Notes under the pieces: generated by a model | What the model was told of the DNA's origin: nothing | The model's input: the letters and a program-made list of their open reading frames with translations, nothing else | Database searches by the model: none | Position numbers and translations under genes: made by a program | IMG/VR virus record: IMGVR_UViG_3300034374_001520 | Coordinates: 1 to 20,782 of that record | Direction: 5' to 3' (one strand) | DNA length: 20,782 bases | Source of the DNA: a virus | Shown: one piece after another, positions 3,307 through 18,712 of the stretch | How the letters are laid out: each line of letters begins with the position of its first letter | Position numbering within the stretch: position 1 is the stretch's first letter

Positions 3307-3500
3307 TAGAGTTTTTCTTTTTTGATTATGCAGTAAACATTCAATTTATACCTATCTATGGGTGTAACTTGGGAGTGCTTTACTATAATCCTAATTTGCA
3401 GCCTGATGAAGAGGATGTGCCTGAGGATGAGTTTTATCATCAGATCACAGTTATGTTATTATTTTTTGGAATACACTTGACAATTTGGAAGTATTATTAG
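3303..3500 (+). CDS. Hypothetical protein with hydrophobic termini (65 aa)
   Basis: This protein has 65 residues. It starts with FFFFDYAVNIQFIPIYGCNLGVLYYNP, interrupted here by nothing but one Cys and two Gly, continues through an acidic middle (DEEDVPEDEFYHQ) and ends with a hydrophobic segment (TVMLLFFGIHLTIWKYY). I recall similar short proteins next to replication genes in flavobacterial phages, but no function is known. The hydrophobic end could anchor it in a membrane. It shares ATGA with the ATPase and overlaps the sigma-like gene by 16 nt, so expression is likely coupled. Confidence 0.65.
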   Translation: MIEFFFFDYAVNIQFIPIYGCNLGVLYYNPNLQPDEEDVPEDEFYHQITVMLLFFGIHLTIWKYY

Positions 3501-3973
3501 AAGCATATAGAAAACACAAAACGTGGGTAGATATTGTTAAGTCCTTCGGGTGCAATCCTGACACTGCTGAGGATATAGTACAGGAAATGTATATTAGACT
3601 AAATAGATTATCTAATAATGGATTAAATATTACTTATAAAAATGAATTGAATTATTATTATATATATAAAATTTTAAAAACTATGTTTTTAGATTTAAAG
3701 AAAAAAGAAAAAAAAATTATGTATATAGATAATCCTCAAGAATATATAAATCAATTAGAGGATAATATGGATGTTAATGTTTCTTATGATGATTTATATC
3801 AAAAAATTATGAGCGTGTTAAATGAATTATATTGGTATGATAGAAAAGTATTTGAATTATTAGATGGTGAAATAAGTATATCAGAATTATCAAGAAATAC
3901 TGGTATAACTTATGCTTCACTTTATAATACATATAGAAAAGTAAAACAAATATTAAAAAATAAATTATTATGA
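3485..3973 (+). CDS. Sigma-70-like transcription factor
   Basis: This protein of 162 residues has two parts resembling a small sigma factor. Residues 1-75 contain DTAEDIVQEMYIRL, close to region 2 of ECF-type sigma factors (core RNA polymerase binding and -10 recognition). Residues 129-158 (EISISELSRNTGITYASLYN plus the next helix) form a helix-turn-helix like region 4. A very A/T-rich linker joins them. No in-frame ATG exists between the last stop and the conserved part, so a TTG at 3485 is the likely start, overlapping the preceding gene by 16 nt. From about 3590 the base composition drops sharply (line 3661-3720 has only 5 G/C in 60), so the 3' part may be a recombinant segment. It could direct phage promoters such as the CGTTATATA elements; that is inference. 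Confidence 0.7.
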   Translation: MEVLLEAYRKHKTWVDIVKSFGCNPDTAEDIVQEMYIRLNRLSNNGLNITYKNELNYYYIYKILKTMFLDLKKKEKKIMYIDNPQEYINQLEDNMDVNVSYDDLYQKIMSVLNELYWYDRKVFELLDGEISISELSRNTGITYASLYNTYRKVKQILKNKLL

Positions 3974-7204: not shown

Positions 7205-7936
7205 ATGTATTATATATATCATATTCCAGAAATAAAAAAAATAGGATGTACTAATGATTTAAAAAACAGAGTAGAAAAACAACAGGGATATAAAAAATAT
7301 ATAGTATTATATAAAACACCAAGTATTAAAAAAGCATCAGAAAAAGAAATAGAGTTACAAAAAAAATATAATTATAAAATAGATATAAATCCTTATTTTA
7401 AAGCTAGAAGTATGCAAAGTAAAATATACAAAACATCACACACTACTACATTTATAAATAGCAATAAAGAGAACATACATACTTATAATTTTCCAAAATA
7501 TATAGATGTAAATGAAACAAGAATATATTTAAATGAAGATATGTTAAGGTGGATAAAGAGTAATAATCATAAATCTCAATACTCTGAAGAAAGATTTATA
7601 TATAATCAGTCATTATTTAATTATTATTCAGCTAACAAAAAAAATAATATTTTTGATGATATAAGATCGTGGGCAAATGAAAGAGGTATATATGATAAAG
7701 GGGATCCTAAAACACAATTAATTAAACTATATGAAGAAACAGGAGAACTTGCCCAAGCATTACTTAAAAATGATAGAAAAGGTATTATTGATGCTATTGG
7801 TGATAGTGTTGTTGTACTTACTAATTTCGCTAAACTTGTCGGTACAGACATTGAAACTTGTATACAGTCTGCTTATGATGAAATTTCTAATAGAACTGGC
7901 GAAATGAAAAATGGTACTTTTGTTAAAAATAAATAA
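7205..7936 (+). CDS. GIY-YIG nuclease domain fused to MazG-like pyrophosphohydrolase
   Basis: This protein of 243 residues has two recognisable ends. Residues 1-60: MYYIYHI and KKIGCTNDLKNRV form a GIY-YIG motif with the catalytic-type R22, then E.E..LQKKYNYKI supplies a Glu around 48-50. Residues 150-240: FDDIRSWANERGIY, LYEETGELAQALL (E177, E178, E181) and IIDAIGDSVVVL (D196, D200) form a MazG-like NTP pyrophosphohydrolase. The middle 61-149 is not recognised. It starts directly after the TAA of the thymidylate synthase-family gene. The MazG half could act on dCTP, as T4 dCTPase (an all-alpha NTPase) does before dCMP hydroxymethylation; the GIY-YIG half might be a captured nuclease or homing remnant. 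Composition is very A/T-rich. Confidence 0.75.
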   Translation: MYYIYHIPEIKKIGCTNDLKNRVEKQQGYKKYIVLYKTPSIKKASEKEIELQKKYNYKIDINPYFKARSMQSKIYKTSHTTTFINSNKENIHTYNFPKYIDVNETRIYLNEDMLRWIKSNNHKSQYSEERFIYNQSLFNYYSANKKNNIFDDIRSWANERGIYDKGDPKTQLIKLYEETGELAQALLKNDRKGIIDAIGDSVVVLTNFAKLVGTDIETCIQSAYDEISNRTGEMKNGTFVKNK

Positions 7937-10221: not shown

Positions 10222-10247
10222 TTTTTGTTTTTGTTTAATTGGGGAAG

Positions 10248-10277
10248 AGAGCAGCAGAAATGTTGCTCTTTTTTTTT
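10248..10277 (+). terminator. Rho-independent terminator before the tail operon
   Basis: AGAGCAGCA (10248-10256), loop GAAA and TGTTGCTCT (10261-10269) form a 9-bp stem with one G-T pair, followed by an unbroken T run to 10277. It ends just upstream of the CGTTATATA element and so separates the terminase unit from the tail unit. Confidence 0.85.
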
Positions 10278-10314: not shown

Positions 10315-10965
10315 ATGAAGATAGATATTACAGTACCTGATAAACTTTCTGAGATTACTCTAGGACAGTATCAGAAATTCTTAAAGATACAGAAGGAGTC
10401 AGAAGATGAGAGATTCCTATCCTCCAAGATGATAGAGATCTTTTGCAATGTTAATTTGTCAAAGGTGATGAACCTAAAGCTATCAGATGTGAATGGCATC
10501 TGTAGTATCTTATCAGATATGTTTAATGAAAAGCCTGCACTTAGACGTAGATTCTTTTTAAATGGAGTGGAGTATGGGTTTGTGCCGAACTTAGAAGATA
10601 TATCTTTTGGGGAGTATGTAGATCTTGATAACTATTTGTCGGACTGGGAGATGATGGACAAAGCTATGGGAGTTCTATACAGACCTATTAAGACTAAATA
10701 CGGAGAAAGATATTCTATTGAGGAGTATAATGCTAGTGATACTGGGGTAATGAAAGATATGCCATTAGATGCTGCTCTAGGTGCTGTGCTTTTTTTTTAT
10801 CATTTAGGGATAGACTTATCAACGACTATTCTGAACTATTTGGAACACAAGGAGGAGACAGCTTTACAGCAGTATCTCAATTTAGCAGGAAGTGGGGATG
10901 GTATCAATCTATTTACACGCTCGCTCAAGGAGATGTTACAAGATATGAAGATATCACTCAACTAA
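10315..10965 (+). CDS. Tail assembly chaperone, zero-frame product
   Basis: This protein of 216 residues begins MKIDITVPDKLSEITLGQYQ and contains GVEYGFVPNLEDISFGEYVD and AMGVLYRPIKTKYGERYSIE. I recall this order (E-I-T-L.QYQ ... YGFIPdle.is..EYvDL ... AM.VLYRPI ... Y.ie.Y) in tail assembly chaperone-like genes of flavobacterial phages. It opens the tail operon ahead of the completion and tape measure genes, the place lambda G/GT holds. The last third overlaps the -1 frame product after the T9 run at 10790. The structural role is inferred from position and frame arrangement. Confidence 0.65.
   Translation: MKIDITVPDKLSEITLGQYQKFLKIQKESEDERFLSSKMIEIFCNVNLSKVMNLKLSDVNGICSILSDMFNEKPALRRRFFLNGVEYGFVPNLEDISFGEYVDLDNYLSDWEMMDKAMGVLYRPIKTKYGERYSIEEYNASDTGVMKDMPLDAALGAVLFFYHLGIDLSTTILNYLEHKEETALQQYLNLAGSGDGINLFTRSLKEMLQDMKISLN
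10790..10798 (+). other. T9 slippery site for -1 frameshifting
   Basis: Nine T in a row give the zero-frame codons CTT TTT TTT TAT. A slip one base back on T TTT TTT reads TTA TCA TTT and enters an open -1 frame that has no usable start codon of its own. Polymerase slippage on the same run would give the same result. Confidence 0.7.
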
Positions 10966-11051
10966 ACGTACATAAAGCACTATTAGCATTGTCATTCATA
11001 AAAGAAAAATCAGAATTAGAATCTAAACAAATAAAAAGCAAGTTCAAATGA
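10797..11051 (+). CDS. -1 frame extension of the tail assembly chaperone (GT-like part)
   Basis: This frame is open from 10740 to the TGA at 11049-11051 and contains no ATG or GTG; its only TTG is near the end. After the T9 run it encodes 84 residues, including YSELFGTQGGDSF, QFSRKWGWYQSIYTLAQGD and a charged helix SFIKEKSELESKQIKS. The pattern WGWY.siY.lA.GD....e.it.l....aL..L.f.kek.E is one I associate with the second part of flavobacterial phage tail chaperones. A -1 shift would make a 245-residue fusion instead of 216. The stop overlaps the next ATG (ATGA), the usual coupling in this phage. No annotation based on start codons would find this part. Confidence 0.75.
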   Translation, partial: LSFRDRLINDYSELFGTQGGDSFTAVSQFSRKWGWYQSIYTLAQGDVTRYEDITQLNVHKALLALSFIKEKSELESKQIKSKFK

Positions 11052-11518
11052 GTTATCAAGCAGCAAGAGGCTTTTATTTAATAACAAACCTTATAGAGGA
11101 TTTACTTATAGCAGATGAATACATCAACACAGTTACTTATGGAGACATCTCTGATGTAGATCTAAACAAACAGACTATCTTTCCTTTAGGACACCTTATA
11201 GTAAACTCTATTACATCCTCAGAGCAGACACTTACTTTTAATGTTAGCATCTTAGCTATGGACTTAGTTAATGTAGAGAAGAAGCCAACTACAAACTGGT
11301 TTAGAGGTAATACGAATGAGCAAGATGTGCTTAATGCTCAATTCAAGGTACTTAATAAACTACTGCAAAAGATAAGAATAGGAGACCTTTACAGAGAGGG
11401 TTATCAGATTATAGGAGATGTATCATTTGAGCCTTTTACAGATAGATTTGAAAACCTATTAGCAGGATGGGCAGCTACATTTGATATAATGATTAACAAT
11501 GACCAATCTGTTTGCTAA
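11048..11518 (+). CDS. Putative tail completion/terminator protein
   Basis: This protein of 156 residues contains NTVTYGDISDVDLNKQTIFP, LGHLIVNSITSSEQTLTFNV and ILAMDLVNVEK, then DLYREGYQIIGD and LLAGWAATFDI. A beta-rich small protein between the chaperone and the neck protein fits a tail terminator or completion protein. I recall this layout from flavobacterial phages. It overlaps the frameshift ORF by ATGA and the next gene by TAATG. The exact role is inferred. Confidence 0.55.
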   Translation: MSYQAARGFYLITNLIEDLLIADEYINTVTYGDISDVDLNKQTIFPLGHLIVNSITSSEQTLTFNVSILAMDLVNVEKKPTTNWFRGNTNEQDVLNAQFKVLNKLLQKIRIGDLYREGYQIIGDVSFEPFTDRFENLLAGWAATFDIMINNDQSVC

Positions 11519-16967: not shown

Positions 16968-17120
16968 ATGTTAGAAAATATATTAGAACTGCTACGGCAC
17001 GTTAATGGAGAGACAGAGAATATCAGAATAGCACAAGGAAAGTATCTTTTGCCTGATGGTTTTAAAATGGTATACAGACAAGTTAAAAAGGAATATAAAT
17101 GGCACAAAAGTATCAAATAG
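16968..17120 (+). CDS. Small hypothetical protein (50 aa)
   Basis: This 50-residue frame starts one base after the TAA of the large tail gene and overlaps the tape measure gene by 22 nt. It begins MLENILELLRHVNGETENIR and contains KYLLPDGFKMVYRQVKKEYK. It is charged and amphipathic. The tight packing between two structural genes supports it as real; its role is unknown. Confidence 0.55.
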   Translation: MLENILELLRHVNGETENIRIAQGKYLLPDGFKMVYRQVKKEYKWHKSIK

Positions 17121-18712
17121 AAATTGATGTAGATTCTAGATCCTTAGGGGAGTTAGAAGATATGTTACAAGATGTTAATGAAGAGTTAAAAGACTTAGAC
17201 AGGAATAGTGATGCTTTTAAAGAGGCTGCTGCTAAATCTCAAATACTAAGCAAAGAAATTGAAAAAATCAACAATGAGATAGAGGGTTTTGATCTAGAGG
17301 ACAAAATAATGGCAGCAGATGGAGCTGCTAAAGTTTTTGGAGGATCACTCTCTGCTGTTGTCGGCACGTTGGGTACACTAGGTATAGAATCGGAGGCATT
17401 TGGTGAATTTGAAGAAAAGGCTGCCTCTGCTATTGCTGTAGGGTTAGGTATTAAAGATGTATCAGAGGGATTTGGTCAGCTTAGAATAGCTATTGCTAAA
17501 TCAGGGGGAGCATCTAAGTTATTTGGCATAACAACAAAAAAGGCATTAATAGCTACAGGTATAGGTGCTTTTGTAGTCGCAATAGGAAGTATAGTTGCTT
17601 ATTGGGATGAAATTAACGCTGCAGTAAAAAGGTTTGGGCAAAACGTGCCTTTTGTTGGTAAAGCTATAGAGTTAATTCAAGATAGTTTTAATTCACTTTA
17701 TGATGCTGCTAAGCCTGTATTGCAATTTTTAGGCATATTGCCTAGTGAGGCGGAAGAGGCACAAAAGAAAATAGCAGAAACTAGTTCAAAGACTATAAGA
17801 GAACTACAAAGAGAAATAGCATTAGCTCAAGCAAGAGGAGATTCAGAGAGAGAACTGTTCAAGCTTAGAGAAAAATTATTACAAGAAGAACTTTCAATGC
17901 TAGAAAGAGGTAATGCTGAGAAAGATGAAATATATAAAAAAGAAACAGAGTTACTTGCATTGCAATTAGCTGAGCAAAAAAGATTAAGAGAGGAGTCTGA
18001 ACAAACTGTAGTTAGAGAAAAGGTAAATACAGTAAATGCTATTAAAACTACAGCAGATGAAGAGGTAAAAACTGAAGGAATAAAAACTCAACAAATAAGC
18101 ATATTTAATAAAGCAGCACACGATCAAAACGCACAAATGCTCTTAGATCAAATAGATGCACAAGCTCAACTAGATGCAGCACGACAAAACTCACTTAACA
18201 ATATTATTGCAATAGCAGGTACTGAAAGCAGAGTAGGCAGGGCGGCATTAATAGCTAAACAAGTGCTATCTGCTCAAGAAATGATAATAAATGCTAAAAA
18301 AACTTTAAGTAATATAGCATCGAGTTCAGCAGAAGCAGGTGTATCTACAGCAACAGGATTTGCTCAGACATTAAAAGCTGGTTTCCCTCAAAACATTCCA
18401 TTGTTAATAGCTTATGCAGCACAAGCTTATAGTATTGGCGCAAGCATTGCATCTGCTATAGGTAAAGCAAAAAGCAGTGTTGGAGCGGCAGGCGGTGGTG
18501 TCAATATTCCTAGTATGAGTACTATATCTGCACCTACAGCATCAGCACCACAAGCACCTGCCTTTAATGTAGTGGGAGCATCAGGTATGAATCAGCTTGC
18601 AGAGGGGATAGCAGGCGCACAAGCTAGACCACAGAGAGCCTATGTAGTAGCTAATGATGTTACAACAGCTCAGGGTATGGATAGAAACATAGTAGAAGGT
18701 GCTAGTATTTAA
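17099..18712 (+). CDS. Tape measure protein
   Basis: This protein of 537 residues starts with a coiled-coil region (DMLQDVNEELKDLDRNSDAF onwards), has Ala/Gly-rich hydrophobic helices (including IGAFVVAIGSIVAYW), a long charged coil (REIALAQARGDSERELFKLR onwards) and a Gly/Ala-rich tail ending YVVANDVTTAQGMDRNIVEG. The layout and the conserved-looking C-terminus fit tape measure proteins of flavobacterial phages, which set tail length and are ejected with the DNA. If the usual ratio (about 0.15 nm per residue) holds, the tail would be near 80 nm. It ends the tail unit; its stop is followed by the second CGTTATATA region. Confidence 0.8.
   Translation: MAQKYQIEIDVDSRSLGELEDMLQDVNEELKDLDRNSDAFKEAAAKSQILSKEIEKINNEIEGFDLEDKIMAADGAAKVFGGSLSAVVGTLGTLGIESEAFGEFEEKAASAIAVGLGIKDVSEGFGQLRIAIAKSGGASKLFGITTKKALIATGIGAFVVAIGSIVAYWDEINAAVKRFGQNVPFVGKAIELIQDSFNSLYDAAKPVLQFLGILPSEAEEAQKKIAETSSKTIRELQREIALAQARGDSERELFKLREKLLQEELSMLERGNAEKDEIYKKETELLALQLAEQKRLREESEQTVVREKVNTVNAIKTTADEEVKTEGIKTQQISIFNKAAHDQNAQMLLDQIDAQAQLDAARQNSLNNIIAIAGTESRVGRAALIAKQVLSAQEMIINAKKTLSNIASSSAEAGVSTATGFAQTLKAGFPQNIPLLIAYAAQAYSIGASIASAIGKAKSSVGAAGGGVNIPSMSTISAPTASAPQAPAFNVVGASGMNQLAEGIAGAQARPQRAYVVANDVTTAQGMDRNIVEGASI

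Follow-up and report, generated by a model that had tools for sequence, protein, structure and literature searches.

The virus of marine flavobacteria analysed here and hundreds of its relatives appear to share a chaperone-like tail gene whose longer form is made by slippage on a conserved T run, most likely by RNA polymerase. In the window, by which we mean the whole stretch of 20,782 nucleotides that was analysed, an IMG/VR virus record, a G-like zero-frame ORF on the plus strand (10315-10965) encodes a protein of 216 aa, with an N-terminal domain (residues 1-167) and a 55-residue zero-frame tail. It contains a T9 run as putative slippage site (10790-10798, plus strand; codons CTT TTT TTT TAT), from which a T-like extension in the -1 frame (10791-11051, plus strand) runs on for 86 aa followed by a TGA (11049-11051). 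The -1 frame is open from stop to stop over 10740-11051 and contains neither ATG, GTG nor TTG in the window, so that a separate gene with its own start was rejected; in the relatives, the -1 frame opens just 0-44 codons upstream of the run. A shift within the T9 would join 159 zero-frame residues to the 86 residues of the extension, giving a conceptual product of 245 aa. Both frames are read in a dual-coding overlap (10799-10965, plus strand), which has no free wobble position and in which both proteins are constrained. In the +1 frame, the sequence holds a stop (the TAG of TTTAGGG, 10805-10807, plus strand) that would terminate the product of a 1-nt deletion or a 2-nt insertion. The TGA of the -1 frame overlaps the ATG of the next gene (11048-11518, plus strand). 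The preliminary description had placed the open -1 frame and the T9 at exactly these positions, had noted the lack of ATG and GTG, to which that of TTG can now be added, and had seen the overlap of TGA and ATG; its figure of 245 residues in place of 216 was reproduced on recalculation. The layout that it had compared to lambda G/GT, with a plain T run, also holds; the frame architecture is the same in 147/147 clusters.

To collect relatives, we used the proteins of both frames, the gene from the Nonlabens phage and two divergent members as queries in scans, which gave several hundred loci; genome searches contributed chromosomal copies. The set, drawn from isolates, prophages and metagenomes and including the window's own copy, comprises 473 loci with 380 distinct sequences, grouped into 147 clusters (85% identity over 300 nt). 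In 473/473 loci, the frame of the C domain is -1 with respect to that of the N domain. The run is a T9 in 405 loci, a T10 in 67 and a T12 in one, with none shorter, and each of the 147 clusters accordingly has a run of 9, 10 or 12. Nonlabens phages P12024L and P12024S, which alone were recovered when phage collections were searched for distant fused relatives, show the same layout, a T9 and the -1 relation, and the prophage copies L088 (Flagellimonas onchidii), L472, L474 and L475 agree in layout. The preliminary description had named stops or indels in relatives and a sequencing error in the T run as grounds for doubt; instead, the run and the open -1 frame are kept in isolates, prophages and metagenomes alike. 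A sequencing error or a frame open by chance is scarcely conceivable to us: homopolymers are error-prone, but hundreds of independent assemblies, isolates included, agree, which rules out an error, and both frames are constrained. Phase variation, in which DNA polymerase slippage would make genomes switch frames, is very improbable as well. A T9 is a mutable tract, yet the -1 relation is invariable across the loci, and none of the records joins the domains in a single frame or by +1; replicational phase variation was rejected because the domains never share one frame. At a single locus (L072:1460-2110), the T10 is kept, yet a -1 stop stands 7 codons past the run; a close relative (L074) differs there, and the stop is either a mutant or a sequencing error. 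A pattern this regular is far above what chance would give: T runs of at least nine are otherwise rare in the coding sequence of these contigs, with just three in 603 kb. In the coding regions of 124 cluster representatives, these three T9 runs and ten A9/A10 runs were seen within long ORFs, and it is possible that they mark other slippage genes.

The -1 frame bears several marks of a coding sequence. When the codons of the zero-frame protein were resampled, chance kept it open in 0.9% of cases, and random synonymous codons for either protein left the other frame open less than 1% of the time. The -1 extension reaches 82-85 codons past the run in most clusters, the zero-frame tail 16 to 84 codons, and a WGW motif is among the invariant positions of the extension. 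Moreover, in 123/129 clusters with a call, the next ATG is offset by -23 to 0 nt relative to the end of the -1 stop, the commonest junction of this stop and the next start being ATGA. Among the 29 clusters of equal length, identity in the overlap is 56% for the zero frame, where the -1 protein alone would lead one to expect 32%, and 62% for the -1 frame, where 27% is expected; these resampled expectations ignore shared ancestry. For this reason the contrast in entropy is the stronger evidence: wobble entropy is 1.31 upstream of the overlap and 1.13 in the part read in the -1 frame only, while entropy in the overlap is 0.53-0.78 at all three codon positions. The pattern indicates that selection acts on both frames of the overlap. 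In addition, at least six proteins of 240-267 aa in the fold library (A0A516L5A8, A0A516L611, A0A6J5N0W0, A0A6J5N3F3, A0A6J5SVK3, and A0A6J7WJY4) reach a probability of at least 0.8 in matches to the N model as well as to the C model, which suggests that they may be natural in-frame fusions of both domains. Sequence evolution thus shows the fusion frame, a run of at least nine and dual coding, and from the conserved -1 relation, the T run and the dual selection we predict that the gene product is a 245-aa fusion beside a 216-aa form.

The composition of the run was analysed in clusters of the class NTT TTT TTT TA/TG. There, the final base of the second TTT could be C without any effect on the zero-frame Phe or the -1-frame Leu; the heptamer T TTT TTN would stay usable, while the run would be cut to seven. 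This doubly synonymous base is T in 115/115 clusters, whereas control doubly synonymous bases elsewhere in the overlap are C in 45/129 (35%); a first pass had given T in 100/100 vs. C in 45/128 at the controls. TTC makes up about 20% of Phe codons in these genes. Furthermore, where codon 4 does not start with T, codon 1 is TTT in 4/4 clusters, compared with 7/143 of the others (Fisher p 1.8e-5), and where codon 1 lacks the middle T, codon 4 is TTN in 3/3, compared with 25/144 (p 0.006), these seven compensation clusters representing about five independent lineages. A loss on one flank is therefore offset on the opposite flank, so that the run stays at nine or more and is found in three codon phases. 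Both tests argue that the length of the run is conserved, not the ribosomal heptamer. In many bacterial genomes, selection against slippage is evident at nine A or T, and this length has served as the working criterion for slippage genes (PMC1088944), runs of nine A's or T's give high-efficiency slippage in vivo (PMC5009743), and poly(T) is favoured by E. coli RNA polymerase (PMC6260861).

Programmed -1 ribosomal frameshifting of the lambda G/GT kind, with tandem tRNA-Phe slipping on T TTT TTT, is possible but in our judgement doubtful. Such a shift would use a heptamer that is present in the zero-frame phase at every site, and it would follow the established route for tail chaperones (PMC5009743). 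The extra T's would then stem from amino-acid constraints or raise efficiency; in most clusters the flanking T's can indeed be explained by hydrophobic I/L/V ahead of FF and Tyr/Trp behind it. Ribosomes may also require UUU over UUC or make use of the extra U's. However, not one site has T TTT TTC, which would be silent in both frames, runs of seven or eight are absent, and lost flank T's are compensated. No excess of structure was detected in six flanking ranges, either upstream or downstream (mean z between -0.24 and 0.40), and no conserved upstream SD-like element was seen in the alignment. The absence of structure is weak evidence, because some lambda-type and other phage ribosomal shifts do without stimulators (PMC5009743). 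That polymerase and ribosome both slip at the run seems improbable to us; the sequence suits each, and co-occurrence at one site is possible according to a review (PMC5009743), but the two contributions are inseparable by sequence alone. In view of the doubly synonymous T, the compensation and the run of at least nine, we rank transcriptional slippage first and ribosomal slippage second, and RNA polymerase slippage is favoured. We consider it rather probable that the gene encodes a G/GT-like tail-assembly-chaperone pair whose switch is mainly transcriptional.

In the transcriptional scheme, the host RNA polymerase would slip on the T9, and a fraction of the transcripts would gain one U or lose two. 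Unslipped mRNA would yield the 216-aa protein by ordinary translation, and slipped mRNA the 245-aa fusion carrying the WGW helical domain. Transcripts slipped the opposite way would stop 2-3 codons past the run and give an N-domain protein of roughly 164 aa; the +1 frame stops at that distance in 140/147 clusters, and this stop is partly a by-product of conserved TTTAGG (Phe-Arg) codons. By analogy with lambda, the short form may coat the tape measure protein and the rarer fusion may recruit the tail tube protein. That it is the polymerase which slips, that the products arise in such a ratio and that they act as chaperones is what we infer here.

For the zero-frame protein, AF2 gave a pLDDT of about 82 over residues 1-167 and under 50 over residues 168-216, and the -1 extension was modelled as a helical domain (pLDDT 77). 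Residues 1-74 placed the HK97 tail assembly chaperone 2ob9 first in VIA-align (Z 4.4, rmsd 3.5, 66 residues), ahead of an unrelated runner-up (Z 2.9), although a Z of 4.4 over 66 residues is within the range of common arrangements. The C domain, in a second look, had no match among PDB structures. In the viral fold library, a protein named tail assembly chaperone was matched at E 0.0095, and R9VW65 of Flavobacterium phage 6H, from a 191-aa gene among tail genes, at E 1.5e-5. This N-domain fold relative in phage 6H (L390, 10352-10927, minus strand) lacks the T9, and an open -1 frame lies downstream, past a stop directly behind a T6; given that open frame, another junction is possible there, and the 6H relative may use a different one. 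The zero-frame protein matches PHROG 32199 (E 1e-22), which corresponds to the N half of the gene, while PHROG 38404 corresponds to the C half; they are kept as two unrelated families, with function unassigned there. PHROG 166, 'tail protein', was matched weakly by 22/63 members (best E 3e-5). No significant sequence match was found in Pfam, NCBIfam or the PDB; a Pfam Phage_TAC_7 hit (E 0.028, 1/25 members) was not counted as evidence. The fold, library and PHROG matches, each of them weak, agree with a chaperone, and a tail assembly chaperone role is likely. The label given in the preliminary description thus stands as far as the weak fold match and the gene context go, not on a sequence family.

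Chaperone genes of the G/GT type usually lie just before the tape measure gene, and their products bind tape measure and tube proteins and are absent from the virion. In the window, the chaperone-like gene is in the late cluster, directly after terL and with tail genes beyond, and four genes separate it from a tape-measure-like ORF (17099-18712). The 420-nt gap after terL holds a strong intrinsic terminator just upstream of the chaperone-like gene (10241-10276, plus strand; 16-bp stem, GAAA loop and T tail; fold -18.5 kcal/mol, z -5.3), which lies between terL and the gene, so that the latter probably begins its own transcription unit. Upstream, a 162-aa protein (3485-3973) has weak matches to sigma-70 region 2 and phage sigma factors (E about 1e-3), and the genomes of P12024L/S have, in a comparable position ahead of terL, a protein annotated as sigma-70 region 2. 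Besides, the product of 7205-7936 combines a MazG-like C-terminal domain with an N-terminus in which visual inspection suggests a likeness to GIY-YIG nucleases, and it is possibly a GIY-YIG-like/MazG-like fusion.

As in lambda G/GT, a short product and a -1 fusion are predicted from the sequence for one gene in a tail gene cluster, with an alternative C-terminal domain and a start-less second ORF, and the best match of the N-domain model is a chaperone, 2ob9 of HK97. In contrast to lambda, where the shift takes place on a heptamer such as GGGAAAG, the gene has a plain T run of at least nine and a dual-coding overlap of about 55 codons, and it stands beside terL; it shows no detectable sequence similarity to curated chaperone families. 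Shigella mxiE/spa13, Thermus dnaX and IS transposases share with it an A9 or T9 run and a conserved shifted-frame extension, and a ribosomal stimulator is not needed in such bacterial slippage genes (PMC1088944, PMC5009743). They differ in that ours is a phage morphogenesis gene with slippage deduced from sequence; it is conserved in 147 clusters, with the extension confined to the -1 frame and, in 140 of them, a +1 stop soon after the run. The same gene pair is found in the Inhavirus phages P12024L and P12024S (genes 40/41 and 38/39), but their records annotate two separate hypothetical proteins and do not mention a frameshift. In published genomes, L082:7995-8689 and L083:7995-8689, the two halves are annotated as separate genes.

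Chaperone pairs made by frameshifting are widespread in long-tailed phages. The tail-chaperone frameshifts covered in a review are all ribosomal, of -1, -2 or +1 (PMC5009743), and the freely accessible literature that was searched yielded no tail chaperone for which transcriptional slippage is described. What we describe is probably a transcriptional variant of the known G/GT frameshift. The fusion protein is split or overlooked by gene callers, and PHROG places its halves in separate families. If the polymerase slips, the product ratio would follow host polymerase and nucleotide conditions, and the run would represent a new evolved route to the same two-protein ratio. With somewhat more than even confidence, we propose that in a large clade of Bacteroidota phages the ratio of the tail chaperones is set during transcription, with three isoforms of 216, 245 and roughly 164 aa. 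If this is true, tail assembly in these phages would hinge on polymerase fidelity, not on ribosome slippage.
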